In this document: positions 27,941 through 53,789 of the stretch, one piece after another
How positions within the stretch are numbered: position 1 is the first letter of the stretch
Layout of the letters: each line of letters opens with the position of its first letter
Assembly: GCF_007743815.1 (NCBI RefSeq)
Contig: NZ_CP036265.1
Location: 5,091,823 to 5,155,822, forward strand
DNA from: Alienimonas californiensis
GTDB taxonomy: Bacteria > Planctomycetota > Planctomycetia > Planctomycetales > Planctomycetaceae
DNA: 64,000 bases
Reading direction: 5' to 3'
Made by a program: the position numbers and the translations under genes
The notes under the pieces: model-generated
Told to the model about the DNA's origin: nothing
The model's input: the letters and a program-made list of their open reading frames with translations, nothing else
Database searches by the model: none

Positions 27941-28018
27941 AGGCGAGCGGGGGGCGTCAGCCCCCCGTGTGTTCCCACGCGATCGAGGACACGGAGGGCT
28001 GACGCCCACCGCTCGCCT
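27941..28018. repeat. REP-like palindrome A (non-autonomous relative of the RAYT ends)
   Basis: The arms 27941-27970 and 27989-28018 are inverted repeats matching at 28 of 30 bases. The right arm is identical over 29 bases to the right end of the RAYT unit at 53761-53789. Each arm also folds by itself (for example GGGGGGC-GTCA-GCCCCCC). It sits between the convergent ruvB and tpx genes, touching the ruvB stop, where it could serve as a bidirectional terminator. Confidence 0.85.
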
Positions 28019-42689: not shown

Positions 42690-42764
42690 GGCGAGCGGGG
42701 GGCGTGAGCCCCCCGTCTGTTTGCACGCCGCCGAGACTCAGGGGGCTAACGCCCCCCGCTCGCC
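42690..42764. repeat. REP-like palindrome B
   Basis: The arm 42690-42717 (GGCGAGCGGGGGGCGTGAGC..) and the inverse arm 42737-42764 pair with a few mismatches around a 20-nt spacer. It belongs to the family at 27941 and at the RAYT ends but is more diverged (GTGAG and GTTAG in place of GTCAG). It lies between two minus-strand genes and could terminate the upstream secretin-like gene. Confidence 0.8.
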
Positions 42765-53100: not shown

Positions 53101-53130
53101 AGGCGAGCGGTGGGCGTCAGCCCTCCGTGT
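53101..53130 (+). repeat. Left REP-like end of the RAYT unit
   Basis: AGGCGAGCGGTGGGCGTCAG followed by CCCTCCGTGT. Exact inverse of 53761-53789 over 29 bases. It starts 12 bp after the stop of the amidohydrolase gene and may also act as its terminator. Confidence 0.88.
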
Positions 53131-53174
53131 CCTCCTACGTCCCCGCGAACACAAATCGCCGCCCCTGACCCACG

Positions 53175-53774
53175 ATGTTCGGCTTTGACCGCGTCTGGCT
53201 GCTGACCTGGACGACGTACGGCAGTCGCCTCCCCGGCGACGAACGCGGCTTTGTCGGCCGGGTGCGGGAACGAAGGCCCGAGGACGTCCCCGGTCGCCGT
53301 CGCGTTCACAACCGACCGCAGACAGAGATCGACGCGGCGAAACCCTCGCTTGAGCGTGTGGCGCAACGCCGGATGACGCATCCGCCCACGCGACTGCACG
53401 CCGAATGCGTCCGCCCGTTGCTGAATCAGTTCGCTGAGACGGCGGGCGTCCGCGGGTGGCGATGTCTGGCAGCCGCGGTGATGGCCGATCATGTGCACCT
53501 CCTGATCGGCGTGAACGGCGATCCGGCTCCTGATGCGATCCTGCGGGATTTCAAGGCGTACGGGAGCAGGGCACTCAACCGGCGGCTCGGCGCCCGCCGC
53601 TGGTGGTCGGACGGCGGGTCGACGCGGCGGAAGACGACATCCGAAGCCGTTCTCGCCGCGGCTCGCTACGTCCGGGATCAGCCGCTCCCGCTGGGGGTGC
53701 GTCTGGCGGCGGAGGTCGCCGAAGCGGTGGACGTGTGGGAACGGGCGAACCCGGTCACGGACACGGAGGGCTGA
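53175..53774 (+). CDS. REP-associated tyrosine transposase (RAYT, IS200-like Y1 HUH family)
   Basis: The 199-residue product has the N-terminal TWTTYGSRLPGDERGF and the central HUH motif His106-Val107-His108 in MADHVHLLIGV. The likely nucleophile is Tyr129 in FKAYGSRALNRR, with the late WWSDGGS and YVRDQPLPL. These enzymes nick and join single-stranded DNA at REP hairpins through a 5'-phosphotyrosine. All residues expected for activity appear intact. The stop codon TGA comes from the right-end palindrome, an unusual overlap. The ATG at 53175 is 45 bp inside the left repeat. No accessory gene is near, so it is probably domesticated or a solo element. Confidence 0.9.
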   Translation: MFGFDRVWLLTWTTYGSRLPGDERGFVGRVRERRPEDVPGRRRVHNRPQTEIDAAKPSLERVAQRRMTHPPTRLHAECVRPLLNQFAETAGVRGWRCLAAAVMADHVHLLIGVNGDPAPDAILRDFKAYGSRALNRRLGARRWWSDGGSTRRKTTSEAVLAAARYVRDQPLPLGVRLAAEVAEAVDVWERANPVTDTEG

Positions 53775-53789
53775 CGCCCACCGCTCGCC
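53761..53789 (-). repeat. Right REP-like end of the RAYT unit
   Basis: ACACGGAGGGCTGACGCCCA followed by CCGCTCGCC. It supplies the final Thr-Glu-Gly codons and the TGA of the transposase gene. The same 29 bases form the right arm of palindrome A at 27989-28017. Confidence 0.88.

Follow-up and report, generated by a model that had tools for sequence, protein, structure and literature searches.

Canonical RAYT/REPtron systems with their REPINs have been described from E. coli and Pseudomonas (PMC3116915, PMC8266576). The relevant passages of the paper that defined REPINs state that RAYTs appear incapable of self-mobilisation (PMC3116915), and a 2021 paper reports, in the portion cited here, no evidence of RAYT mobility (PMC8266576). 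REP singlets are described as decaying remnants (PMC8049555, passage on singlets), and the E. coli enzyme is described as needing mismatches in the REP stem (PMC8266576, same portion). In the sections of the TnpA-Y1 classification by Quentin et al. 2018 (PMC6006769) used here, class 3 occurs mainly in Planctomycetes, Acidobacteria and Proteobacteria, with Planctomycetes accounting for 11 of 24; the spacing of its Y...Q motif is printed as dashes, and the E. coli RAYT is given N119 where IS608 has Q131. REP/RAYT systems in Planctomycetes and repeats that overlap the 3' end of the gene are already published (PMC3733652, PMC6006769, in the parts cited). Among the matches listed in a literature search of titles and the beginnings of abstracts, with subscription papers mostly outside it, none named a mobile RAYT or REPs from the genus studied here.

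The window, by which we mean the whole stretch of 64,000 nucleotides analysed, covers positions 5091823-5155822 of the single-contig genome of Alienimonas californiensis (5,475,215 bases; genome label G000). It contains a RAYT-like gene enclosed by two inverted REPs (Table 1). A preliminary description had reported perfect inverted ends of 29 bp around an intact transposase; the repeat proved longer, being perfect over 31 of 31 bp, while a 34-nt version of the arms is 97% complementary. The coordinates of the open reading frame and arm also bear out the claim that the right palindrome codes for the C-terminal Thr-Glu-Gly and TGA: the arm encodes D196-T197-E198-G199-TGA and spans -15 to +15 about the final base of the stop codon. 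The whole REP-RAYT-REP unit measures 688 bp and lies between convergent genes, an amidohydrolase on the left and a thioredoxin-like gene on the right (these names, and those of the RuvB, peroxiredoxin-like, oxidoreductase and cyclase genes below, rest on Pfam). A possible function of the C-terminal tail coded by the REP was considered: at eight of 52 RAYT loci the stop codon is reached by the REP core when 14 nt are added to it, and three of these (L031, L045, L077) have the REP in the same position at the stop, with the TGA within the core. As the preliminary description had said, the 29-mer occurs elsewhere in the window, where its three exact copies are the two arms and 27988-28016; one further copy with 3 mismatches lies at 27943-27971, and none was expected from 100 shuffles.

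Table 1. Features of the RAYT unit and the REP pairs of the window (window positions unless stated otherwise)
Feature	Position	Strand	Remarks
Left REP, type A, GGCGAGCGGTGGGCGTCAGCCCTCCGTGTCC	53102..53132	+	GGCGAG end outward
5' leader, left REP to start codon	53133..53174	+	contains GCGAACACA, found in REPIN spacers too
Y1/HUH transposase gene, RAYT-like, class-3-like	53175..53774	+	199 aa ORF
HUH motif H106-V-H108	53490..53498	+	H in 48/48 (H106) and 47/48 (H108) aligned rows
Y165-V-R-D-Q169, putative catalytic Tyr and YxxxQ motif	53667..53681	+	Y in 44/44 rows with a residue, Q in 44/45
Right REP, type A, inverted	53759..53789	-	codes for last four residues and TGA
Type A REPIN, 76 bp, between RuvB gene and convergent peroxiredoxin-like gene	27942..28017	.	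missing at the congener's matching site
Second REP pair of the window, divergent	42690..42764 (genome 5134512-5134586)	.	

The 5' leader and the 3' coding end were also considered as decayed halves of flanking REPINs. This idea was rejected because local alignments, judged against shuffled sequence, reached P 0.08 and 0.12, and because the C-terminal part preceding the REP resembles, by eye, the coding sequence of a congener (EVAEAV against EIALAL). The likeness of the leader's GCGAACACA to REPIN spacers is itself not significant (P 0.08).

The 199-residue protein matches Pfam Y1_Tnp (PF01797) with E 9.4e-6 and 26.2 bits, above the gathering score of 23. Its score against NCBIfam REP_Tyr_transpos (NF047646) is 36.5 bits, under the curated cut-off of 80 bits, and against the IS200/IS605 model NF033573 it is 26.2 bits, under the cut-off of 55 bits. 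All 36 members of alignment A1 (36 reference strings minus L081, plus the window protein) match NF047646 at E <=0.01, the best at 1.6e-13. An AlphaFold2 model has a mean pLDDT of 89.2, and its top fold match in the PDB is 4er8, a RAYT with its REP hairpin (E 3.2e-5, TM 0.44/0.51), followed by ISDra2 and IS200-type transposases. A sequence search of the PDB gave the IS200-type chains 2f4f (6.5e-5) and 2ec2 as the highest-ranking rows in which a stretch passes; the top two rows by E-value are designed repeat proteins whose single stretches fail.

For conservation, 61 loci were taken into tblastn and 60 matched, and 47 of these with the window protein make up the 48 rows aligned; L067 and L068, duplicates of the G153 and G104 loci, stand among the 48 rows and were excluded from the reference-string, flank, motif, synteny and tree sets. 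The tree holds 44 proteins picked from the 60. The HUH motif and one tyrosine of the catalytic type (H106, H108, Y165) are conserved across the alignment, as would be expected of an active site. The preliminary description had placed the active site in His-Val-His and the tyrosine of FKAYGS, and the first of these stands. The second, Y129, is ruled out as catalytic by its substitutions (Y 42, W 4, C 1 and one gap in 48 rows) and by the lysine opposite it in the IS200-type chains 2f4f and 2ec2, both of whose alignments stop short of Y165. Judged by conservation, the catalytic tyrosine is Y165 in YVRDQ, and the motif is Y...Q because Y165 and Q169 are conserved and Y129 varies. Values of dN/dS between 0.06 and 0.28 in six RAYT pairs point to purifying selection, with dS saturated (>2) in four of the six; a value of 1.09 for L082/L083 was set aside for an internal stop in L082 and an alignment slip, and L063/L072 was excluded for infinite dS.

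The genome holds no second copy of the window RAYT, the next best match by E-value standing at 36%. Five more RAYT-like places, L032-L036, lie at 5188984, 3812208, 3322061, 956184 and 3264357. Several have unrelated inverted repeats of their own (37/37 bp at 956 kb, for example), and the one at 3322061 reads YVEQNPVK, with N in place of the Q of the window RAYT.

A 19-mer REP core, allowed up to 2 mismatches, has 93 copies in 68 clusters genome-wide and none in the reversed control. Pairs within 300 nt number 25, all oriented +- and none -+, and their spacing is exactly 51 nt in 15 and 50 nt in two. The preliminary description had made the link between RAYT and REP depend on finding the repeat end elsewhere in the genome in palindromic pairs, and it is as such pairs that the repeat is dispersed. 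Conservation sets in sharply at GGC (97-99%); the preceding base is A in 59% of copies, and farther out no base has a majority. The profile of the 93 copies shows no GT[AG]G foot ahead of GGCGAG. By their tails, 53 copies are of type A (CCGTG) and 30 of type B (CTGAG, CCGAG or CGGAG), leaving 10 untyped; the commonest type A 29-mer accounts for 20 of the 53, both RAYT arms among them. On the minus strand, CGGA precedes GGGCTGACGCCC in type A only, type B having CTCA or CAGG there, to be compared with the class 3 foot CnGA. Single copies make up 12 of 53 in type A against 25 of 30 in type B. Because A is thus mostly paired and B mostly single, and singlets are described as remnants (PMC8049555, passage on singlets), we infer that type A is the living family and type B a decaying one.

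Set against 200 shuffles, the REPIN at 27942-28017 folds better than every one of them (z -8.2, for the segment 27943-28018), and single REPs fold moderately better than shuffles (z -1.6 to -2.6). REP sites are scarce at the start of the genome record, its first 1.5 Mb holding 5 of 93 sites and 4 of 68 clusters (binomial P against an even spread 8e-8 and 1e-5, respectively). Both this REPIN and the RAYT unit at 53102-53789 fill gaps between convergent genes. By eye, the congener's gap that matches 27942-28017 holds a different inverted repeat, and REPINs may therefore act as substitutes for terminators.

One congener, G003, was compared. Its RAYT shares 61% identity with the window RAYT and is its sister in the tree (100/99). 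The RAYT is flanked by type A REPs in A. californiensis and by type B REPINs on both sides in G003, and each of the two genomes is dominated by the REP subtype that flanks its own RAYT: exact type A and type B copies number 43 and 15 here and 6 and 44 in G003, the 44 being a complete count (Fisher 4e-11, from copies that are not independent). One stem pair also differs. It is T.T in 28 of the 43 exact type A copies here, and among the 44 exact type B copies of G003 it is G-C in 22, C-G in 12, A-T in 6, a wobble in 3 and a mismatch in 1; read from these sequences, a mismatch is kept here and pairing is kept with compensatory change in G003. The contrast is between a T.T mismatch with a CCGTGT tail and a Watson-Crick pair with a CTGAG tail. 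These are signs, at the level of sequence, of a change in RAYT/REP specificity between congeners, and the differences in stem and tail are presumably what the two enzymes recognise. At one intergenic site (L144 near 640-800, L131 near 170-290), the REPIN is, by eye, of type A here and of type B in the congener, which suggests independent insertion or conversion.

The preliminary description had called such a unit unusual for a planctomycete-type genome. This is not borne out, as 75 of 170 genomes of the family have RAYT-like matches of some kind (E 1e-5), in keeping with the cited parts of PMC3733652 and PMC6006769. Relatives at 47-49% identity come from MAGs titled Planctomycetota and Planctomyces, and one at 46% from a Chloroflexi-titled MAG. 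The flanks of 52 relatives contain 115 REP-like motifs against 6 in the reversed control, with 69 of 104 flanks holding one against 5. At least 8 REP-pattern copies occur in 24 of 38 genomes with the window's RAYT clade (E up to 1e-15 to the window protein) and in 13 of 132 without it, a P of 9e-11 that is indicative for related genomes; the exceptions are the 14 clade genomes with fewer than 8 copies and the 13 non-clade genomes with at least 8. Motifs stand on both sides at 27 of the 52 loci, in the orders +/- (6), -/+ (10), +/+ (6) and -/- (5), and because only 6 of 27 have the +/- order, the REPs beside a RAYT do not generally form fixed termini. In G012, contigs C10, C12, C13, C24 and C34 carry tandem REP copies at 147-151 bp, mostly 149 (for example C13:36096, 36245, 36394, 36543), in contrast with the isolated REPINs of A. 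californiensis.

That the unit is autonomous, as first proposed, is supported by its site being empty in four genomes that keep both neighbours. In G003 the amidohydrolase orthologue (C46:26943-31148, 84% identity) is followed directly by the thioredoxin-like gene (64%), with neither RAYT nor REP between them, and in three other genera (G022, G056, G050) the two genes are adjacent with no RAYT. A search with the amidohydrolase end in 30 relatives found a match in 14, 12 of them outside the genus; of the 10 loci examined there, 3 keep the thioredoxin-like neighbour and 7 do not within the DNA examined. A hand count from stop to stop gives a spacer of 28 nt in G003; here, 12 nt to the left of the unit and 16 nt to its right add up to 28 nt as well. 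Since the presence of the unit leaves this length unchanged, the 688 bp have the look of a clean insertion that duplicated no target sequence; the letters of the two spacers do not align, and their equal length could be chance. The congener's RAYT site, where the neighbours are a GFO/IDH/MocA oxidoreductase gene and a gene with a cyclase domain, is in turn empty here, the orthologues (93% and 78%) being adjacent with no RAYT or REP. This site is not polarised, because none of the 10 loci examined outside the genus showed the gene pair; the oxidoreductase is matched in 27 of the 30 genomes searched.

Elsewhere in the family, G133 has the array REPIN-REPIN-RAYT-REPIN between PPDK and TerC genes, where its congener G117 has neither RAYT nor REPIN; the one loose motif match at the G117 site aligns with non-REP sequence of G133 and is, by eye, no REP. 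Gain and loss are not separable in this pair because G117 keeps 32 REP-pattern copies. The REPINs flanking the G133 RAYT (L063 1347-1488 and 2058-2201) have 65 bases in common, identical and in direct orientation, with part of the spacer among them (hand count), as if one had been copied from the other. Three other congeneric pairs (G163/G166, G125/G132, G142/G140) keep the RAYT in place with shared flanks, so that RAYT movement is rare. The evidence for transposition of the whole unit lies in the filled and empty sites between species, and for the window locus it suggests that the RAYT and its flanking REPs came to the site as one unit.

We regard the locus as probably a REPtron, in which cognate REPs form the outer ends of a unit coding for a single-strand HUH/Y1 transposase of RAYT-like type. 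The observations behind this reading are the anatomy, the fold, the conserved active site, the REP/REPIN population, the match of RAYT and REP types in the two congeners and an insertion-like difference between the species. The steps that we infer, from hairpin and nicking to movement in trans and in cis, run as follows. In single-stranded DNA each REP would fold into a hairpin beside the conserved GGCGAG foot. The enzyme would bind this hairpin, and Y165 would nick beside it, with H106 and H108 holding the metal. The 76-bp REPIN, which consists of two inverted REPs, would be moved by the enzyme in trans, and the 688-bp REP-RAYT-REP unit would be moved in cis, more rarely than the REPIN. That the stop codon falls within the right REP may be a consequence of the unit's compactness.

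The filled site could also have arisen by homologous capture, in which a REPIN first stood between the two genes and a RAYT was then swapped in by recombination between REPs, with no RAYT transposition. The 93 REPs make homology available, a REPIN occupies the comparable convergent gap at 27942-28017, and the outer order of the unit (+ -) is that of a REPIN. Such an exchange requires, however, a donor RAYT whose flanking REPs stand in that order, and none is left in the genome; we consider it unlikely, if the strongest of the rivals.

Slightly less probable is an immobile, domesticated RAYT, with old paralogues A and B in the genus, one of them deleted in each species, and REPs dispersed only in trans. 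It would agree with what the cited passages say of RAYTs as single-copy and vertically inherited (PMC8049555) and as giving no evidence of mobility (PMC8266576), and with the RAYTs that stay in place in the three other congeneric pairs. Both REP types are present in both genomes, which makes reciprocal loss of old paralogues possible, and the RAYTs are more diverged (61% identity) than three of the four neighbours (78-93%). The fourth neighbour, the thioredoxin-like gene, is nevertheless about as diverged as the RAYT. The site is, moreover, empty in three other genera too, so that an insertion must have taken place in or before the genus, and loss would need to have been scarless.

An ordinary insertion sequence of the IS200/IS605 kind, bearing subterminal palindromes, would account for the Y...Q motif, which is as in IS200 transposases (Q131 of IS608, PMC6006769, section cited), and for the IS200-type chains among the PDB fold and sequence matches (2f4f at 6.5e-5). 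We hold this to be improbable: the NF033573 score of 26.2 bits lies below the cut-off of 55, the RAYT is single-copy, its ends form 25 inverted pairs that enclose no gene, and the top fold match is the RAYT 4er8. A chance inverted repeat, or terminator hairpins unconnected with the gene, would suit a unit between convergent genes, where terminators are expected, but has next to no probability, being refuted by the shuffles (0 expected), the genome-wide count (93 against 0) and the motifs around 52 relatives (115 against 6).

On the boldest reading, class-3-like planctomycete RAYTs may still be mobile. The REP-RAYT-REP unit would then transpose in the manner of an insertion sequence, with REPs as its termini and REPINs as gene-less derivatives, and RAYT and hairpin would have co-diverged within one genus. 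We offer this as a tentative proposal, possible but short of probable. A RAYT bounded by REPs, at a site that is empty in a congener and three other genera, makes the view of RAYTs as immobile testable, and it provides comparative evidence for relocation contrary to that view. The A/B pair within one genus amounts to a natural swap experiment on the recognition of REPs by RAYTs. A mobile class-3-like RAYT, if true, would supply the intermediate that is missing between IS200 elements and domesticated RAYTs.

Among described systems, IS200/IS605 elements share with this locus the HUH/Y1 fold, palindromic ends and the lack of a visible target duplication; unlike them, the unit is single-copy, its ends are dispersed without a gene, and its protein scores under the NCBIfam cut-off. 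The TIRtron/TIRYT systems of Di Nocera et al. 2013 (PMC3733652) are similar, in the part cited, in having a tyrosine transposase between inverted repeats, some of which overlap the 3' end of the gene ('3'ov'), whereas the repeats here are self-complementary and dispersed as REPINs. With the canonical REPtrons and REPINs of E. coli and Pseudomonas, as presented in the cited portions of PMC3116915 and PMC8266576, the locus shares a REP family of its own, inverted doublets of fixed spacing, a mismatch in the REP stem and the 4er8 fold. It departs from them in the absence of a GTAG foot, in having Q where the E. coli RAYT has N119, and in a RAYT that stands alone between two single REPs at a site empty in relatives. 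As in a class 2 REPtron, the REPs form inverted doublets that are, by sequence, cognate to the RAYT they flank; the 5' GT[AG]G foot of that class is absent. Compared by published description, the protein comes closest to class 3 of the TnpA-Y1 family (PMC6006769, sections cited), which it resembles in its planctomycete host, its Y...Q motif (Q169 in 44/45), its atypical flanking hairpins without GT[AG]G and the many hairpin copies in one host genome. The foot given for class 3 is 5' CnGA; the conserved one here is GGCGAG, with CGGA next to the hairpin on the other strand and in type A only. With comparative signs of relocation and of a change in RAYT/REP specificity, the locus is probably a new REPtron of non-canonical, class-3-like type, ordinary in kind.
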